Assembly: GCF_900129505.1 (NCBI RefSeq)
Contig: NZ_LT670818.1
Coordinates: forward strand, 3,753,001 to 3,817,000
Source: Bradyrhizobium erythrophlei
GTDB lineage: Bacteria; Pseudomonadota; Alphaproteobacteria; Rhizobiales; Xanthobacteraceae
Direction of reading: 5' to 3'
DNA length: 64,000 nt
Position 1 is the first letter of the stretch, and every line of letters begins with the position of its first letter. Below, in pieces: positions 7,737 through 18,197 of the stretch. The translations under genes were made by a program, and so were the position numbers. The notes under the pieces are model-generated. The model searched no databases, was not told where the DNA came from, and saw only the letters and a program-made list of their open reading frames with translations.

Positions 7737-9879
<2,143 letters not shown>

Positions 9880-9985
9880 CACGGTTCCTCTTGCAGGCTC
9901 GGTTTTCGGATCTGGTCGCGAAGCGAAACTGGATCGGAATACGGGCGTATTCGACCCCCCAGCGGGGCAAATCAGCCCGTTTCCC

Positions 9986-10012
9986 TTAGCAATCGCTCTC
10001 TCGGAGTGCTAA
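9986..10012 (-). promoter_or_regulatory. CIRCE operator (HrcA binding site) upstream of groES
   Basis: A 9-9-9 inverted repeat: TTAGCAATC (9986-9994), nine-base spacer, GAGTGCTAA (10004-10012). The consensus is TTAGCACTC-N9-GAGTGCTAA, so there is one mismatch, in one arm. It lies about 107 bases before the groES start codon. In alphaproteobacteria the HrcA repressor binds CIRCE and couples groESL to heat stress. Confidence 0.93.
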
Positions 10013-10211
10013 TTGTGCGGCCGGGAATATGGCTTGGCGCGGTTCCTGTCAAGCAAGCCGGGAGTTAATCCGTTGGTGAGGCCGATATAGGATGTTTGAG
10101 GAAGCCAAATCGGAGCGCCGGCGTATTTTACCGGACGTCATTGCTCCGACAGCAGTTTTACGCTTGGCTGCGGGACGGGCGCGGCCACGAATTTGTTCGG
10201 GGGAATATACT

Positions 10212-10730
10212 ATGGTCAGGTCACTTAGCGCGCGGTCGGTTGCCAACCTGGGAATCGCCTCGGCGCTAGCGTTATTCCTGGGCGCGTGCGGAAGCTTCAG
10301 CCTGCCGTCCTTATCGTCATCCTCTCCCGAACCGGCTCCGGAGCCGGGCGTGGGGCCCGAAATGCCGGCGTCCATCCGCGCGGACGAAATTGTCGGCCGC
10401 TGGGGTCTCGCCTCCTACCAGAATCCCGCGGACCGGGCGCGCACCGAGGCGGCGGCGAAGGGGCAGTGCAAACAACCCTATGTGATCGGAGCCGGCACGT
10501 CGGGCGGCGTCATCATGCACCTGGCCGACCAGGCGACGCCGCAGGAGCTGCGGCTCAAGGGCAGCCCGGGCGGCAAGAACTTTATCGGTCCGCCCGGACC
10601 GGCCGGCGGCGAGCAGGATCGCGAGATCGTCTCGTTCGATGGACGGGTCCTGATCACCCGGTTCACCGACAAGGATGCGGCGACCCGCTACGGCAACATG
10701 GTCTATGTCCGCTGCTCGCCGCGGGCGTGA
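10212..10730 (+). CDS. Putative lipoprotein of unknown function
   Basis: 172 residues. An N-terminal signal ends in the lipobox LFLGAC, so the mature protein should start at Cys and be lipid-anchored in the envelope. A Ser/Pro-rich linker (SLPSLSSSSPEPAPEPG) follows, then a compact domain starting at EIVGRWGLASYQNPADR. I recognise no catalytic motif. The start ATG 10212 has GGGGGAA upstream; the frame is open 40 codons further but without a good site. It is divergent from groES, separated by the CIRCE region. Confidence 0.75.
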   Translation: MVRSLSARSVANLGIASALALFLGACGSFSLPSLSSSSPEPAPEPGVGPEMPASIRADEIVGRWGLASYQNPADRARTEAAAKGQCKQPYVIGAGTSGGVIMHLADQATPQELRLKGSPGGKNFIGPPGPAGGEQDREIVSFDGRVLITRFTDKDAATRYGNMVYVRCSPRA

Positions 10731-10808
10731 GCTGCTGAATCCGTCGGTGCATTTAACCCGACAAAAAACGCCGGCATCGGGCGGCGCAATTCGTCACGGA
10801 CGACAAAC

Positions 10809-10845
10809 AGGAGCGGTGCACACGTACGCGCACCGCTCCTTTATA
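10809..10845. terminator. Probable bidirectional terminator hairpin
   Basis: A perfect 11-bp stem (10809-10819 with 10830-10840) is followed on the plus strand by TTTAT. It lies between the convergent lipoprotein and esterase genes. The T tail is better for plus-strand transcription. Confidence 0.7.
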
Positions 10846-10852
10846 AGTCTTC

Positions 10853-12493
10853 TCAGTTTGGAAGATTCTGTCGGTCCCCCACTACCAGGTTTTGAAGGAG
10901 GTTCTTTACCTCCTGCGCCCGGTCTTTGGCATAGTCGTCCGCGTCGTTCACGCAGGTGAAGCTTGCGGCTTGCGTGGGATTTCCCGCCTGGTACTTAACA
11001 ACCTTCGGGTATGGGCACAAAGGCCGAGTCATAGCCACGCCTTGAGACGGGTCGCCGTTTTTGTACGCAGTGGCGAGCAATGTATCCGGCTCAGCGCGCT
11101 GTTCGACCCATTTCTCCAGAGCCGCGACCGCATCAAAATTGTTGGGACCAGGGCCACCACCACAGTGGCTCATTCCAGGCACCATGAACAATCGGAAATA
11201 GTCTGCGGTTTTGTGAATGTTCCCCGAATCGTTCGATAAAACGACGTTATTATAGTACTCGATGGGAAGGCTTTGGGCATTCAATGCGTCTATCCAGCCC
11301 TGGGTCATGATGAGCTTGTGACCAAGCTCCCTCAGTCTACTCAGATTCGGACTGGTAGCGTCGATCTTCGGGCTCAGCACTTGATCGACCCGCTTAGCGT
11401 CGCTGTCGTAGTTGAACGTCGTCCAATCCCAATTCGGGTTGTTAAACACCGTATTGGCGAGGAGGGGCTGAGCGAAAAATGCTATGAGCGAGCCTTGGAT
11501 CAACGCCCACTGGCTCTCACTTCCCGGCGCAAAACCGGGATAAAGTTTCAGGCCGGTCCGCGGATTTGTGACCGGCGAATATAGATGCTTAACCGCGGCC
11601 AGCTGTGGCGCGGTAAGGCATGTGCCCGAGCTTTGACCCGCCGTGCAAAGAAGTGCCGACGGATCAAAATGACAATCTCGGGGATCGTTCAGGAAGGTAT
11701 CCGTAACAAGCGCCTTCGCCGACGTGCAGGCGTTGAGCACCGCGGTATTTAGGGCGTTTAAGGTACTCTGCGGAACCAGGGCCGCCGGGTTTTGCGCGGA
11801 CGGTAGGCCACCCCACAGGAAACTTTCCATGAGATGGGCATAATCCATCCCGGGAGAGCCGGCCCATAAGCCATCGAAATCCTCGGGATAGTATTCGGCT
11901 TCCTCCATGGCTTCCGCGCCACCGGTTGAACAGCCGGCGTAGTAGGAATATCGGATATCCTTCTTGTAAAACTGCTTGATAATGTCCTTTGCAGCGACCG
12001 TCATAAGATGGATGGAAGTATGCCCCCAATCATAAAGTGAGACCGGATTTTGCGCCCAGGGAAGCGGTGCGCCGATCGCTCCGATTGTACCCCCTTCGTG
12101 GCCGGTATCCGTAGTCGCCGCCGCAAAGCCGGCGTTCACGGGAGCGGCCAACGCTGCGTAACTTATGCTGCCGCCAAAGCCCCCGCTTCCTTGCGCCTCG
12201 TATTTGCCGTTCCAATCGGAAGCGGGCATCCATATTTCGATTTTGACTGCTTCGGTCGGCTGCGTACTTACGGTCGCGGCGACGCGACAAAACGCTGGCA
12301 TATTGCCGACGTTTGTACCGTCGGGGGCGACGTAGGCGCCCGCGAATATCGATTGCGCCGCCGTAATGGTCGTATTGGCCACGTGTGCGTTTATCAGGCT
12401 CTCGCATGTAGCCGCGAATGACGCCGTCGGTGCGAGTGCGACTGACGACATCATAGCTGCAGCAAGTGCGGGAAGTAGACGATTGGCTTTCAT
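10853..12493 (-). CDS. Secreted tannase/feruloyl esterase family hydrolase
   Basis: A 546-residue alpha/beta hydrolase of the tannase family, whose members cleave ester bonds of gallate, ferulate or related aromatic esters outside the cytoplasm. Residues 1-27 form a signal peptide (cleavage ASFA-ATC). The nucleophile lies in YYAGCSTGGAEAM (Cys-Ser), DALNAQSLPIEYY lies in the C-terminal half and GMSHCGGGPGPN holds the His; the CS...HC pairing is the family's characteristic disulfide-linked catalytic arrangement. Two ATGs occur in tandem; ATG 12493 is six bases after AGGAG. Upstream, at 12671-12718, lies a copy of the lysR-proximal operator-like sequence. Codon use is visibly less GC-biased than in groEL. 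The actual substrate is unknown. Confidence 0.85.
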   Translation of the reverse strand: MKANRLLPALAAAMMSSVALAPTASFAATCESLINAHVANTTITAAQSIFAGAYVAPDGTNVGNMPAFCRVAATVSTQPTEAVKIEIWMPASDWNGKYEAQGSGGFGGSISYAALAAPVNAGFAAATTDTGHEGGTIGAIGAPLPWAQNPVSLYDWGHTSIHLMTVAAKDIIKQFYKKDIRYSYYAGCSTGGAEAMEEAEYYPEDFDGLWAGSPGMDYAHLMESFLWGGLPSAQNPAALVPQSTLNALNTAVLNACTSAKALVTDTFLNDPRDCHFDPSALLCTAGQSSGTCLTAPQLAAVKHLYSPVTNPRTGLKLYPGFAPGSESQWALIQGSLIAFFAQPLLANTVFNNPNWDWTTFNYDSDAKRVDQVLSPKIDATSPNLSRLRELGHKLIMTQGWIDALNAQSLPIEYYNNVVLSNDSGNIHKTADYFRLFMVPGMSHCGGGPGPNNFDAVAALEKWVEQRAEPDTLLATAYKNGDPSQGVAMTRPLCPYPKVVKYQAGNPTQAASFTCVNDADDYAKDRAQEVKNLLQNLVVGDRQNLPN

Positions 12494-12803
12494 CATTTGC
12501 TCCTTGAAAACGACAACTCTCCCACGACGCTTCAGATGAAGCGTCATCTTTTCGTTCGAAGCCTTTGAGGAGTTTTATTGAGGCGCGTCGCCCCCACCCC
12601 CCTTTTATTTTTCAAGACACGCCTTCTGCGTGCGTGCTCGATTCACTTGATTAACGCTGCTCCACCATCGATTTTGCAATTGAAACTTTTAGATCGCAGC
12701 AATAATCTTTCGTTATGGTTTTGGGTTGAGATGTACTGGCGCCTGATTTGAGGCTGAGATCGGTCGTCAGCGAAGCTGATCGCAGCGATGGTTGGTTGCT
12801 ATT
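12494..12803. other. AT-rich regulatory gap upstream of the esterase gene
   Basis: About 310 bases, AT-rich compared with the neighbours, with no convincing gene. It holds the esterase promoter and the operator-like repeat described separately. A C/T-rich run lies near 12590-12612. Confidence 0.6.
12671..12718. promoter_or_regulatory. Operator-like 48-bp repeat, copy A (upstream of the esterase gene)
   Basis: It matches 39 of 48 positions of copy B at 15954-16001 without gaps. Conserved blocks are ATTTTGCAATTGAAA, AGCAATAA and GTTATGG. It lies about 180-225 bases before the esterase start, in the same orientation as copy B, which overlaps the lysR start. Likely binding site of the island's LysR regulator; inferred from the repetition only. 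Confidence 0.65.
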
Positions 12804-13160
12804 TCAACCGGCTTCAGTACGAAATCTGCGCGAAGCCGAAATCTCATGCGCGACTATATCCGGCAGATCCAGATCGAGCAGAGCTGAGCTCAAGCCTTTG
12901 CCGTGGGCATCAAGCGCGAGCGAGCGCGTCACGCCGCCGCCGAGCGCCAGGGTCAGTACAAAGTTGAGTGCCCCGATCGACGGCATTTCGTATCGCGTTA
13001 CTTCGCCACGAACGATCTCTGCAAAATGTGCACTGACACGCTCAGCCGTAACATGCTGACACAGGAATTCGTAATTCTCCGAATCGAAGGCAATCACGGA
13101 AATATTCGAGATGTTTCCCTTGTCCCCGGTCCGGGAGTGGGCAATCTGACGAAGCTTCAT
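12804..13160 (-). CDS. AtuA-related small protein (ferredoxin-like-fold partner of AtuA)
   Basis: 118 residues. The opening KLRQIAHSRTGDKGNISNISVIA and the segment LNFVLTLALGGGVTRSLALD are typical of the AtuA-like domain, which in some bacteria is fused to the C-terminus of an AtuA/DUF1446 protein. Here it is a separate gene 24 bases after atuA, the third gene of the citMHS-atuA run. The biochemical role of this domain is not established to my knowledge; AtuA proteins are genetically linked to citronellol/geraniol degradation. Confidence 0.8.
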   Translation of the reverse strand: MKLRQIAHSRTGDKGNISNISVIAFDSENYEFLCQHVTAERVSAHFAEIVRGEVTRYEMPSIGALNFVLTLALGGGVTRSLALDAHGKGLSSALLDLDLPDIVAHEISASRRFRTEAG

Positions 13161-13184
13161 CTGCCGTCTCCTAAAGGCGGTTGC

Positions 13185-14522
13185 TCAAGGATTGAACATT
13201 TGGAACGTCGGTATTGCGAATTCTTCTGGCACCAATACGGACGCGACGGCAATGATCTCTCGCGCCGACTTGAATGCACCGCCACCGCTTGCCGGACCGT
13301 TAGTGTAGAGTGTTTCCACCTCGTTGCCGATGCGCTCCGCTTCTCGAAGATTTTCGGTGCGGCCGGCAACGCGCAAACGAACTTCGTACGGCGCGCCGCC
13401 GCTTGACAGCATCGAGCCGTGCATTGAGTCTGCGCCTATTAGATCGAAACGGGACTCTGTCATTTGCACGCCGATCAGAGCGAGCCGCTCCCGGACGATT
13501 TCACGTGCAAGTTTGCCTCGTTCCAGCGCGCCTGGACCGGCATAGGAAATCTGGCCCTCACCGACATAACTGTCGATGTAACCAATGGAGGTTTTCAACT
13601 GACCTGTTTTTGGCTTCCCGCTGCCGCCCTGTACGCGCACTCGGTCCGGGCCGACCTGGGTCACGGTTACTCCTGAGAAATCACCGACCACATCGGGTTG
13701 AAGGTAGCGACTCGGATCATGCACCTCATAGAGAAGCTGCTCCTTGCAGGTCGCTTCAGTGACCGCGCCTCCCGATCCGGGTACCTTGGTCACGATGAGA
13801 TCGCCATTTTCACTGATTTCCCCGATTGGAAACCCAAGCCGCGCCAAGCCCGCGACATCCTTGAAGCCCGGATCGGAAAAGTAACCACCCGTGATCTGGC
13901 CCGCGCATTCCAGCAAATGGCCGACGAGGGCGCCTCTGCCCAAGCGTTCCCAATCGTCCATTGCCCAGCCGAATTCGTGAATCAGGGGTGCCATGAACAG
14001 CGCGGGGTCGCCGACGCGACCCGTAATTACCACATCGGCACCCGCAGCTAATGCCTGAACGATGGGCGCCGCTCCCAAATAGGCATTAGCCGATAACAAT
14101 CGATTGCCCAGATCCCTGACGCGTCCTTCAATTTCCAGAAATGGAAAATTGCCGCGCTCGCAGGCTTCCAGAACGTCGTCACCACCGACTGCAGCAACTC
14201 TCAGTCCCTTGATCCCGAGCTGCCTCCCGATCTCCGCAGTTCTGGCGGCTGCCGCCGCTGGATTCGCCGCGCCCATGTTCGTGATGATCCGGATACCCCG
14301 GGACTTGCAGATGGCGAGGATGGCCCGCATGCGCTGTTCGAGCATGGGATCGTAACCTGCCGTCGGATCCTTCAGCTTCTGTTGCTGTGCAAGCGCAATC
14401 GTGCGCTCGGCGAGGCATTCGAATCCGAGATACTGAATTTCGCCTTTCTCAGCGAGTTCGACCGCGGGCTCAATGCGGTCTCCAGAATAGCCTGCTCCGG
14501 AACCAATCCTGATCGTTTTCAA
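13185..14522 (-). CDS. AtuA family protein (DUF1446, acyclic terpene utilization family)
   Basis: 445 residues, the usual length of the DUF1446 domain. The N-terminal IRIGSGAGYSGDRIEPAVEL and the region IRIITNMGAANPAAAA are clear family signatures. Named after Pseudomonas atuA in acyclic terpene degradation, but many members sit in carboxylate or aromatic pathways and the reaction is unknown. The gene lies between the CitMHS transporter (19-base gap) and the AtuA-related partner (24-base gap), so the three are one operon. The context suggests it processes a carboxylic acid imported by CitMHS. Cytosolic: no signal peptide. Confidence 0.85.
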   Translation of the reverse strand: MKTIRIGSGAGYSGDRIEPAVELAEKGEIQYLGFECLAERTIALAQQQKLKDPTAGYDPMLEQRMRAILAICKSRGIRIITNMGAANPAAAAARTAEIGRQLGIKGLRVAAVGGDDVLEACERGNFPFLEIEGRVRDLGNRLLSANAYLGAAPIVQALAAGADVVITGRVGDPALFMAPLIHEFGWAMDDWERLGRGALVGHLLECAGQITGGYFSDPGFKDVAGLARLGFPIGEISENGDLIVTKVPGSGGAVTEATCKEQLLYEVHDPSRYLQPDVVGDFSGVTVTQVGPDRVRVQGGSGKPKTGQLKTSIGYIDSYVGEGQISYAGPGALERGKLAREIVRERLALIGVQMTESRFDLIGADSMHGSMLSSGGAPYEVRLRVAGRTENLREAERIGNEVETLYTNGPASGGGAFKSAREIIAVASVLVPEEFAIPTFQMFNP

Positions 14523-14541
14523 GGGAACTCCTCCAGAAGAC

Positions 14542-15846
14542 CTACAACGGAAAGACGCCGAGCAGCACGCACGCGATCGTCATGACGACCGATGCGCCGA
14601 ACAGGAACGGAAAGGTAAACTTCTGGTGGTCGCCGAGATCGATACCAGTCAAACCGACAATCAAGAAGGTCGCAGGCGTTAGCGGGCTGACGGGGAAGCC
14701 TGTGGTCATTTGGCCGAGCAGCGCAGCCTGGGCTATCTGCACGGGGGGCACGCCGAGCTGCTTGCCAACCTCGGCTACGACAGGAAGCACACCGAAATAA
14801 AACGAGTCCGGATCGAACAGCAGGCTCAGAGGCATTGAGATGAGTCCCAGTGCGACCGGCAGGTGATGCGCCATTTCTGCCGGCACAAACGTCACGGCCG
14901 TCTGCGCCATCGCCTTGAGCATTCCCGATCCCTGCATAATTCCGGTGAACACGCCTGCTGCCAGCAGGATACTGGCCATCATAAGCGCGGCCTTCGCATG
15001 TGCGTCGACCCGCTTTCGCTGCATATCGACGTTTGGATAGTTAATCATCAGCGCAATGCATGTTCCGACCATGAACATTAACGCCGGCGGAATTTTCTCA
15101 CCCATGGCAACCATGGTTCCCAACACGGCCACCGTGAGGACGATGTTAATCCAGAAATTTCGTGGGCGCCGAAGATCGGCCTCATCCGCCGTAAGTTGGC
15201 GTTGCGCAGGAATTGCGTCGCTCTTCGAGCCGGTAAGGCCGAGCCGCCTTTCCTCCCGGCGTCCCAAAAGGTAAGCCGCGGTGAAGATGAAGGCGAGACC
15301 GACAAGTTGGACCCCGATCAGGGGATTGAATATCTCCGAGATCGGAAGCTTCAGCGCCGCTGACGCGCGGATCATAGGTCCGGTCCAAGGCAGGAAGTTG
15401 ACGCCGGCTGCCATGGAGACGGCGCAGGCAAGAATGCGCTTGTCGATGCCAAGCCTGTCGTAAAGGGGCAGCGTTGCAGGAATTGTGATGAGGAAGGTCA
15501 CTGCTCCCGAGCCATCGAGGTGGATGAGAAGCGCCAGCAAGGTCGTGCCCATCACGATGCGAGTGGGCCGCGTTCCAACTGTCCGCAAAATGCGGTCGAT
15601 GACGGGATCCAGCATTCCGGCATCTGTGACGACACCGAAGAACAGGATCGCAAACACGAACATGCCGACGACCGGGGCAAGGCTTTTGAGCCCCTCGAGA
15701 ACAAACTTGCTGGTATCGTAGCCGAAGCCTCCGACCAGTGAGGCGATGATCGGAATAGTGATAAGCGCGATAAGCGGCGACATTCGCTTGGAAATGATGA
15801 CCGCCAACAAGACGACAACGGTCGTCAGGCCTAGAAGGGCCAGCAT
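14542..15846 (-). CDS. CitMHS family carboxylate transporter
   Basis: A 434-residue inner-membrane protein with about 11-12 hydrophobic helices. The region LIHLDGSGAVTFLITIPA and NFLPWTGPMIRASAAL match the CitMHS family, whose known members move citrate complexed with Mg or Ca in symport with protons. The C-terminal MTTGFPVSPLTPATFLIVGL is also typical. First gene of the minus-strand operon with atuA and its partner; divergent from lysR, with copy B of the operator-like repeat in between. In this context the substrate is probably a di- or tricarboxylate or a branched acid rather than citrate itself; that is inference. Confidence 0.88.
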   Translation of the reverse strand: MLALLGLTTVVVLLAVIISKRMSPLIALITIPIIASLVGGFGYDTSKFVLEGLKSLAPVVGMFVFAILFFGVVTDAGMLDPVIDRILRTVGTRPTRIVMGTTLLALLIHLDGSGAVTFLITIPATLPLYDRLGIDKRILACAVSMAAGVNFLPWTGPMIRASAALKLPISEIFNPLIGVQLVGLAFIFTAAYLLGRREERRLGLTGSKSDAIPAQRQLTADEADLRRPRNFWINIVLTVAVLGTMVAMGEKIPPALMFMVGTCIALMINYPNVDMQRKRVDAHAKAALMMASILLAAGVFTGIMQGSGMLKAMAQTAVTFVPAEMAHHLPVALGLISMPLSLLFDPDSFYFGVLPVVAEVGKQLGVPPVQIAQAALLGQMTTGFPVSPLTPATFLIVGLTGIDLGDHQKFTFPFLFGASVVMTIACVLLGVFPL

Positions 15847-15953
15847 GGGATTTCCTCTTCAGAAAATATCTCGTTGACCAGCTGGGCCGTCGTAAGAACC
15901 GATGCAAAAAGCTTCGCAATAGCTGGTTCCCACAATTAGCGGGCGGTCATCTC

Positions 15954-16001
15954 ATTTTGCAATTGAAATGTTCATATAGAAGCAATAACGTTTGGTTATG
16001 G
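15954..16001. promoter_or_regulatory. Operator-like 48-bp repeat, copy B (citMHS/lysR divergent region)
   Basis: This sequence overlaps the first codon of lysR (ATG 15998) and lies 108-155 bases upstream of citMHS, where LysR-type regulators normally bind. Within it, ATTGAA (15962-15967) and TTCATAT (15971-15977) make an imperfect dyad. Copy A at 12671-12718 is 39/48 identical. Confidence 0.65.
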
Positions 16002-16951
16002 ATATAAACCTGCGCCAGGTTCGTGCGTTCGTTTCGGTTGCGCATCTGAAGAGTTTTACGCGCACCGCGCGGCTGCTTCACATCTCGCAGCCAGCGCTAA
16101 CGGTCCAAATAAGAAAACTAGAGGAGGACCTTCAGATCAGACTGTTGGATCGCAATAGTCGAACGGTCGATCTCACACGGGTCGGCGTTGAACTTCTCCC
16201 GGTCTTTCAGCGCATACTCCACGAACTTGACTCGGTCGTCGTCGATACGCGCGCCCTCGCGACTACACAGCATGGCGTGGTGCGGATAGCCGCACTGCCT
16301 TCGTTCGCTGCCGGCATGCTTCCGACTGTCATTTCCCGGTTTCGACAGTCAAATCCCAGGATGACTTTCGTATTGAAAGACGTGGTCGCCAGCAGAGTTA
16401 ACGACAGCGTGCGGTCGGGCCAGGTAGACCTCGGTGTTACCGGCGGCAAGGTTGCCGATCCTGAACTGGAGATTCTCCATACCTGGCAGGATCACATGCA
16501 CGCCGTGTTTCCATCGGGACACCCGTTCGAGCGCAAGCGCCGGATTACGCTGGAGGATCTCGCGGAGGTTCCGTTGATCCTGATGGATTCGGAAACAAGT
16601 GTGCGTGCGATTGTTGATGCTGCCTTCGTCGCGGCCGGACGCCTTCCTATCCCAGCTTGTGAGGCGATCTACATGATGACTGCCGTGGGGATGGTCAAAG
16701 CCGGGCTCGGTGTCGGCATTCTGCCCGCGTCAGCAAAAGAGGTACAGGCCGAACCAAGCTTGGTGTCGCGCCTGATTGAGGACACGGCCCTCACACGACA
16801 GATAGCTATAATCAAGAAATTGAAGCGCACATTGCCGCCTGCCGCGCAATTGTTTCTTGATGAGGTACTCAAGGTCATTCGCGAACCGCTCGCCAAGGGC
16901 GACGTCAGTAAGGGCCGCGCTCGAAAGAAGCGGGCCTCTCTTCCCGGCTAG
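15998..16951 (+). CDS. LysR-family transcriptional regulator
   Basis: 317 residues. A winged-helix DNA-binding domain fills residues 1-60 (NLRQVRAFVSVAHLKSFTRTA, then SQPALTVQIRKLEEDL), followed by a substrate-binding domain of normal length. The C-terminus is unusually basic (GRARKKRASLPG). The start is ATG 15998, because MDINLRQV is the usual LysR opening; a TTG two codons earlier is open. It is divergent from citMHS-atuA, the classic arrangement in which LysR controls the neighbouring operon in response to a pathway metabolite. The repeat copies imply it also controls the esterase gene. Confidence 0.93.
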   Translation: MDINLRQVRAFVSVAHLKSFTRTARLLHISQPALTVQIRKLEEDLQIRLLDRNSRTVDLTRVGVELLPVFQRILHELDSVVVDTRALATTQHGVVRIAALPSFAAGMLPTVISRFRQSNPRMTFVLKDVVASRVNDSVRSGQVDLGVTGGKVADPELEILHTWQDHMHAVFPSGHPFERKRRITLEDLAEVPLILMDSETSVRAIVDAAFVAAGRLPIPACEAIYMMTAVGMVKAGLGVGILPASAKEVQAEPSLVSRLIEDTALTRQIAIIKKLKRTLPPAAQLFLDEVLKVIREPLAKGDVSKGRARKKRASLPG

Positions 16952-17103
16952 CCGAGGTCAAGATAACCGCCGATGGATTTGCGGATCGCCTTATAGGCAG
17001 CGATGTTTTTGAGAATCGAAGCCCTCGTCCGAGGCGTGATCAACGACGCGAGCTGCACGCGTTTTTTGCCGACGTTTTCCGTTTTATCCGGCGGTCAAAA
17101 GGA

Positions 17104-17883
17104 TCAGTCGAACAGAGCGTCGATGTCGTTCTGCGAGGCGTGACCCTCGTCGCCGTCCAGCTTCGGGCCGTTCAAGAGCTTCGCGTCGCCTTCCCGGTCG
17201 TCGACGATCGGCGGCGCGTGCGCCTTGATCGCATCCACGCCACCCCAGATGTCCATCATGACGGTGATGTGGTTCTCGATGAACTTCATCGTGGTCATCA
17301 CCTTGCTGATGCGCTGACCGGTGAGATCCTGAAAATTGCAGGCTTCGAAAATGGAGACGACGCGCTCCTGGATTTCCTCGCTGAGGATCTTCTGCTGGTC
17401 CGGTGAGGTCACCTTCGACAGCGCGCTCGACGCGTTATCGATCGCCTCGGCGGCTTCCAGGATTTGCTGGGTGGCTTCTTCGGTGCCGCCGACCACGGCG
17501 CCGAGTTCGCCATTGACCTTGGCCATCTCCTCGCCGTTGAAGCTCTTGCCGTGCAGCACCGCGATTTCCCGCTTGGTGCGGTTGATGGCGTCGTAGATCA
17601 GGTCGAGTTCAACCTTGAGCTTTTCGCACTGTTCGATCTGGGCGCGATAGGTTTCCAGCAAGGCGTAGGCCTCGGCGGCCTCGCGCGAAACCGAAGCATC
17701 GAGCGTCTCGACGGTCGCGCTACGGGCGCGGCCGGAGCTTCCCATTTGCGAGCGGATGGCGCGCAGCTCGTTCATGATCTCGCGATGCATGGGACCGACC
17801 TCGCCGTCAGCGCCGGCGGGCATCGGCATGTCGCCGCCGATGATTGCTTCTTCGATACGAAAGCGTCTGCGATGAATCGGCAT
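17104..17883 (-). CDS. cheZ: Protein phosphatase CheZ
   Basis: 259 residues, long for CheZ. CheZ dephosphorylates the chemotaxis response regulator CheY-P. The core helix carries ACNFQDLTGQRISKVM, which holds the catalytic Asp and Gln of the D-x-x-x-Q motif. The C-terminal SQNDIDALFD is the acidic CheY-binding helix. The middle region is predicted long helix, as expected for the four-helix-bundle dimer. Start ATG 17883 has AGGAA upstream; ATG 17904 is less likely. It stands alone, with no other che gene in the window. Confidence 0.9.
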   Translation of the reverse strand: MPIHRRRFRIEEAIIGGDMPMPAGADGEVGPMHREIMNELRAIRSQMGSSGRARSATVETLDASVSREAAEAYALLETYRAQIEQCEKLKVELDLIYDAINRTKREIAVLHGKSFNGEEMAKVNGELGAVVGGTEEATQQILEAAEAIDNASSALSKVTSPDQQKILSEEIQERVVSIFEACNFQDLTGQRISKVMTTMKFIENHITVMMDIWGGVDAIKAHAPPIVDDREGDAKLLNGPKLDGDEGHASQNDIDALFD

Positions 17884-18197
17884 GAGATTGTTCCTGACCT
17901 TCACTCCGTCCGTTTTAGGCAGATGCGATTTAACATCGGGTTCACGCCGGGAACTGTTGTCGAGTGCAAGGTTTGCCGCCGCACATCAACGATTAACCAT
18001 GGGCGGCCATCGTTCATCGAAAATAAACGCTACCGGTCAAAACCGCGTCCAGTTGGCGGGATGGTGAATCCAAAAGCCGATTCTGTTTACCAAACCGACG
18101 CGGTTTTGATTTTAGTTGGTGGCGTGCAGGGGCGCTTTCGAAAGCGAGCGCCCGGCAAGGACAATTTCAACAAGACGAAACAGTACAGAGTACGTCG
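17884..18197. other. Divergent intergenic region between cheZ and the L,D-transpeptidase gene
   Basis: About 314 bases without a supported gene. Promoters of both flanking genes must lie here. I see no strong inverted repeat or RNA structure. Confidence 0.5.

Follow-up and report, generated by a model that had tools for sequence, protein, structure and literature searches.

A 48-bp block that occurs twice in DNA of Bradyrhizobium erythrophlei is probably the operator of a LysR-type regulator, judging by its sequence and its conservation. The stretch analysed, here called the window, comprises 64,000 nucleotides of contig NZ_LT670818.1 (positions 3,753,001 to 3,817,000; positions below count from its first letter). 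One copy of the block, copy B, lies between the regulator gene lysR and the divergent operon citMHS-atuA-atuC and would control this uptake operon, and the other, copy A, lies before a tannase-family esterase gene and would control the esterase. A sequence-only reading of this DNA had proposed that the LysR protein controls both transcription units through the two copies, and that proposal is supported by the conservation of the block and by the rarity of orphan copies, which stand before hydrolase genes of types found inside the operon. The features concerned are as follows, with the strand in brackets where one applies.

12671..12718: copy A, orphan operator-like block before the tannase-family gene; matrix score 42.9; 22 of 24 conserved positions
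15954..16001: copy B, over the lysR start in the gap separating lysR from citMHS; matrix score 43.1; 22 of 24 conserved positions
10853..12496 (-): tannase/feruloyl-esterase family protein (PF07519, E 4.7e-98)
12804..13160 (-): AtuA ferredoxin-like protein, short name atuC (PF23544, E 9.2e-37)
13185..14522 (-): AtuA family protein (PF07287, E 7.2e-153)
14542..15846 (-): CitMHS, transporter of the citrate:proton symporter family (TIGR00784, 406.9 bits, cut-off 259.7; PF03600)
15998..16951 (+): LysR-type transcriptional regulator (PF00126 and PF03466, both above cut-off)

The repeat and its conservation

Copies A and B are identical at 39 of 48 positions, without a gap and in the same orientation, just as first described, and under an independence model chance would yield between about 2e-5 such pairs in the window (taking the composition of the window) and 6e-4 (taking that of the copies). 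Copy B covers the lysR ATG (15998) and lies 108-155 bp upstream of the citMHS ATG (15846), again as described. The position of copy A upstream of the esterase gene also held, and its distance was adjusted: the 178-225 bp given earlier suits a second ATG at 12493, and the distance from the ATG at 12496 is 175-222 bp. Matches were then counted across the 9.18-Mb genome, as the sequence-only reading had suggested, and a 23-base pattern for the right half of the block (up to 3 mismatches) was found at A and B only, with no match for the reversed control. A broader pattern fitted to relatives, also with up to 3 mismatches, matched A (0 mismatches), B (1) and two more places (3 each), and these two are at chance level since the reversed control gave 3 matches. 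A scoring matrix built from 14 lysR-linked blocks (two of them identical), with the window left out, was run over both strands of the 64 kb; below A and B, the next scores were 3.5 (B read backwards) and 0.4. Over 54,546 bases of other loci, the sole high score, 42.9, was copy A itself (L055), followed by 4.9. Near the 3' end of atuC (12779-12796), GATCGCAGCGATGG exactly repeats the block core ATCGCAGCGAT, possibly by chance.

An orthologue of the LysR protein was present in 12 of 265 genomes of the genus at E <= 1e-60, its own included (the other 11 at 51-58% identity), and in 3 more genomes among 397 sampled from the order at E <= 1e-70; among 385 genomes sampled from the class at E <= 1e-70, only its own genome matched. 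All 14 other genomes that hold the orthologue have the block in the corresponding position, its end overlapping the lysR start, and these lysR-linked blocks have the consensus ATTAGACAATTGAAATGATTCAATCGCAGCGATAGAATATCTCTATGG. The question raised earlier, whether the blocks vary freely among orthologous islands, is thereby answered in the negative. Copy B and its counterparts in all 14 other genomes are flanked on one side by the regulator gene and on the other by a divergently transcribed target. Next to copy A there is no divergent regulator gene.

A pattern that did not include the ATGG end and allowed up to 3 mismatches was applied to the 265 genus genomes and matched 11 places in nine of them, with no match for the reversed control. 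Nine places were lysR-linked and two were orphans, namely copy A and G101:C126:4564. All nine genomes belong to the 12 lysR holders, and the 253 genus genomes without an orthologue at E <= 1e-60 gave no match; the pattern missed the holders G150, G196 and G212. A relaxed pattern, designed after the blocks of the 15 lysR holders were known, found 17 places in these holders (control 0), comprising 15 lysR-linked blocks and the same two orphans, so that orphans make up 2 of 17 block places.

Both orphans lie upstream of hydrolase genes whose families relatives carry inside the lysR-divergent operon, in the same orientation towards the hydrolase gene and at a similar distance, and both carry TATGG in its usual position, which the pattern had not required. 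The G101 orphan stands 217-264 bp upstream of where a gene for a 3-hydroxybutyrate-oligomer hydrolase (PF10605) probably starts. This family is present in 4 of the 15 lysR-holding genomes and on two Microvirga plasmids; its gene follows atuC inside the operon in G172, G093 and G024, and in G101 it lies on a separate contig with a block of its own. The window genome gave no PF10605 match. Tannase genes lie inside the lysR-divergent operon in G172, G101 and Microvirga sp. VF16. The window tannase had matches in 41 of 265 genomes at E <= 1e-90; apart from its own genome, the in-operon tannases of G172 and G101 came nearest to it (39-40% identity). In Microvirga sp. VF16 the 3-hydroxybutyrate-oligomer hydrolase is annotated as two overlapping pieces (L121, 3134-5186), and in Microvirga ossetica as a single gene.

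The block also extends to plasmids. A LysR match (E <= 1e-40) was present in 97 plasmid records; 13 of these loci were examined, and nine carry the block at the same place, some of them betaproteobacterial: Paraburkholderia (3), Microvirga (2), Caballeronia (2), Azospirillum argentinense (1) and Mycetohabitans (1). In Azospirillum thermophilum and Azospirillum sp. B510 the block lies 14 bp further upstream, so that its right end, TTATGA or CTATAA, is not the annotated start. No ungapped block match was found before lysR in Novosphingobium sp. PP1Y or Roseomonas mucosa. Azospirillum thermophilum has a second block-like site (L128, 8954-9001), which scores 22.4 where 1000 shuffled versions of that gap reached at most 5.7 and lies ahead of a chemoreceptor gene adjacent to lysR. 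By eye, strain B510 has a similar stretch before its chemoreceptor gene (L129, about 8955-9000), and the chemoreceptor genes after lysR in these two plasmids are possible regulon members. Genes for 3-oxoacid coenzyme A-transferase A and B follow the operon in Azospirillum thermophilum and were seen beside it in that species only. In Novosphingobium sp. PP1Y, a minus-strand matrix match (27.4) lies beyond the end of the LysR match, which is 41% identical (L130, 8920-8967). Loci L029, L030, L032 and L034 form a second class of lysR/atuA cluster with a branched-chain-type ATP-binding cassette transporter (Pfam-tested in L030 only), and in L030 an amidase gene follows.

Operator and promoter architecture

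Two inverted repeats (IR1 and IR2) were located in each copy, and three promoters were predicted.

12702..12716 (-): IR1 of copy A, ATA-N9-TAT with T-N11-A, presumed recognition site
15985..15999 (-): IR1 of copy B, ATAAC-N5-GTTAT with T-N11-A
12679..12694: IR2 in copy A, a degenerate form of ATTGAA-N4-TTCAAT with 5 of 8 pairs symmetric, presumed activation site
15962..15977: IR2 in copy B, likewise a degenerate form of ATTGAA-N4-TTCAAT, with 4 of 8 pairs symmetric
12650..12679 (-): predicted esterase promoter, -35 TTGCAA (12674-12679), 18-bp spacer, -10 GTTAAT (12650-12655), at an aligned position common to relatives
15935..15962 (-): predicted citMHS operon promoter, -35 TTGCAA (15957-15962), 16-bp spacer, -10 GCTAAT (15935-15940)
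15963..15991 (+): predicted lysR promoter TTGAAA-N17-TAACGT, read from sequence, ending six bases before the lysR ATG

The IR1 form ATA-N9-TAT was present on the operon strand in 17 of 17 blocks from the genus and the order, and by eye T-N11-A is also kept in the betaproteobacterial and Azospirillum blocks; IR2 retains 3 to 7 of 8 symmetric pairs across blocks. For the promoters, 26 blocks were compared, among them copies A and B and the G101 orphan. On the operon strand, the match to TATAAT was on average highest 14 nt after the block (2.73, with 2.04 as the next highest of 60 offsets), and TTG stood at the -35 place in 21 of the 26 blocks. From the fitted start, IR1 and IR2 are predicted at about -63 and -41. 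Six bases separate the end of TTGAAA-N17-TAACGT from the lysR ATG in copy B, so that lysR may be leaderless. The fold of 12719-12812 gave a z of -1.45, and a plus-strand terminator-like hairpin lies in the esterase leader (12526-12545), such hairpins being about as many as expected by chance.

From this geometry we infer a mechanism in which the block would be a bipartite LysR operator combined with two back-to-back promoters that have CAATTG in common. At copy B, LysR bound at IR1 would cover the lysR -10 element and start codon and so limit lysR (auto-repression). With inducer, LysR would also engage IR2 beside the operon -35 element and switch on citMHS-atuA-atuC. Copy A, in the same orientation, would give the esterase its own promoter under the same LysR, so that the cell would induce the release of an ester-bound acid along with its import. 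The inducer may be a hydroxy-carboxylic acid, perhaps 3-hydroxybutyrate, and the esterase is probably exported, judging by eye from its signal peptide. The genes point to a cluster for the uptake and use of a hydroxy-carboxylic acid freed from esters, perhaps one like 3-hydroxybutyrate.

Origin of copy A and competing explanations

Several observations weigh against copy A as a working operator and against the promoter geometry. The spacing is partly built in: choosing the best -10 match from offsets 11-17 gives positions of -62 to -67 for IR1 and -39.5 to -44.5 for IR2, distances set in part by that choice of offsets and counted from a start fitted from sequence. The IR2 elements of A and B differ from each other and from the consensus, with only 5 of 8 and 4 of 8 pairs. 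Five of the 26 blocks (L029, L030, L032, L035 and L053) have at most two of six matches at the -10 place, and in L029, L030, L032 and L034 a TATAGT straddles the end of the block instead. A stricter consensus promoter scan reports no promoter at either copy. Of the 48 positions, 24 are conserved (each kept by at least 12 of 14 relatives), and A and B are identical at 22 of these and at 17 of the remaining 24 (one-sided p = 0.068), so that the smaller number of differences at conserved positions is only a trend. The in-operon tannases of G101 and G172 have no second block in the scanned loci of 16-17 kb, and no block precedes a tannase gene in any other genome examined. Finally, because no operon-strand terminator was found between atuC and the esterase gene (12400-12900 scanned), read-through from the citMHS operon could serve the esterase.

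The last two points also favor the strongest rival, that copy A is an inert scar of a duplication or recombination of the lysR 5' end which has lost its coding part, with the esterase expressed by read-through. A and B are closer to each other than either is to any other compared block (at most 35 of 48), and at position 18 they share a T in place of the A that at least 12 of 14 relatives carry. Because of this shared T, A and B probably derive from one another, and together with the 39 of 48 identities it means that a duplication may be the origin of copy A. The sequence-only reading had offered such a scar as an alternative on account of the start-like ATGG in copy A; a scar is not needed to explain this ATGG, because two Azospirillum blocks keep their right end 14 bp before the annotated lysR start, and so retain it away from a start codon. 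Copy A has lost no more conserved positions than copy B (two of 24 each), and the upstream flanks of A and B were dissimilar in one local alignment. The sole other orphan in 265 genomes also lies before a hydrolase gene, with the same orientation and a similar distance, and keeps 24 of 24 conserved positions. This G101 orphan matches the G172 block at 39 of 48 positions and the lysR block of its own genome at 35. By eye it continues with ATGGATATC, as several lysR starts do, and then diverges; a partial scar could also explain the ATGGATATC continuation.

A simple scar with leftover lysR was rejected, as 16 shuffle-tested local alignments to lysR gave no convincing remnant after copy A or the G101 orphan. 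Two alignments were borderline and were taken as chance: the sequence following copy A, aligned to the window lysR with a register shift of 14-15 bases (reached by 10 of 200 shuffles), and the sequence following the G101 orphan, aligned to the L013 lysR on its reverse strand (7 of 200). A scar may thus explain how copy A arose and explains its preservation less well, and as a full account of copy A we consider it unlikely.

Two other explanations are much weaker still. Copy A could be a copied rightward lysR promoter that makes a short or antisense RNA against the atuC 3' end, since it keeps TTGAAA-N17-TAATCT and ATGG on the plus strand, but this is very improbable, as the frame from its ATG ends after four codons, a simple promoter scan was negative at A, predicted leftward hexamers are present there too, and both orphans point towards a hydrolase gene. 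The block could also be bound by another regulator, its link to the window LysR being incidental, given that the genome has 61 LysR-like matches (E <= 0.001, the window LysR counted among them) and that binding of the block by LysR is a prediction; we give this little credence, as the block has the form of a LysR-family site, adjoins lysR in 15 of 15 holders, and was matched in the genus by nine genomes that are all holders and by none of the 253 non-holders.

Related systems and significance

The regulator has the domain architecture of a LysR protein, with an N-terminal HTH_1 domain (PF00126, 68.6 bits) and a C-terminal substrate-binding domain (PF03466, 158 bits), both above cut-off; of the 25 NCBIfam matches shown (of 54), none reached its cut-off. 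The closest solved chains by sequence are BenM and CatM of Acinetobacter, with full-length LysR architecture (best match E 3.9e-29, residues 4-269). The window LysR lies far under their NCBIfam cut-offs, with 105.5 bits where 600 are needed and 100.1 where 580 are. BenM and CatM regulate benzoate and muconate breakdown. Within 7737-17904, the window cluster has a lipoprotein-like gene (10092-10730) on one side and, near groEL, a CheZ-like gene on the other. In G240 (L026) the orthologous cluster lies on the opposite side of groEL, and the lipoprotein-like and CheZ-like genes of that genome are adjacent to each other. On this gene order, there seem to have been two different insertions of the lysR cluster into one neighbourhood.

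The arrangement resembles known LysR systems. The sections of PMC5002191 on which we draw give an extended LysR core, CTATA-n9-TATAG, and a MetR site, TGAA-N5-TTCA, and describe GcvA, MetR, IlvY and others as having, like the window, a divergent regulator and target with several inverted repeats in the gap. As in the classical case described there, one repeat covers the predicted promoter of the regulator itself and another adjoins the predicted -35 element of the target; unlike that case, the predicted window operator has its recognition half overlapping the regulator start codon, and the whole block is duplicated before a separate esterase gene. According to the parts of PMC5431877 used here, LysR regulators have one site 60-80 nt upstream and another at -35, and HpdR/hpdH of Pseudomonas putida is a switch of the LysR type whose divergent region contains a conserved 40-nt block, as here. 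HpdR is induced by 3-hydroxypropionate and both 3-hydroxybutyrate enantiomers; the HpdR elements given in those parts lack T-N11-A, and the target is a dehydrogenase gene, in contrast to the transporter, AtuA and esterase genes here (PMC5431877).

A search of the open-licence literature returned no paper joining AtuA with CitMHS, LysR or 3-hydroxybutyrate, none joining a 3-hydroxybutyrate oligomer hydrolase with LysR and a transporter, and none joining a tannase with a LysR-type regulator and 3-hydroxybutyrate. To our knowledge, the role of the AtuA/AtuA_ferredoxin pair is unclear. For DUF1446 with a transporter and LysR the search returned PMC4682846, in which the protein is described as having no known function.

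The locus is a new example of a known LysR-type switch, and the possible hydroxyacid-ester regulon is its interesting part. It gives an uncharacterised LysR regulator a predicted regulon in which ester hydrolases, a carboxylate transporter and AtuA-family proteins would stand under one operator, and it suggests that a hydrolase gene leaving the operon can stay in the regulon by carrying its own operator copy. More tentatively, and short of what we would call likely, the block may be a portable operator-promoter cassette, placed over the regulator start, that recruits the tannase, the 3-hydroxybutyrate-oligomer hydrolase and the Azospirillum chemoreceptor to a LysR/AtuA/carboxylate-uptake regulon. 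If so, the AtuA and AtuA_ferredoxin proteins would belong to hydroxyacid catabolism, perhaps of the 3-hydroxybutyrate type, which offers a concrete substrate guess for this pair.

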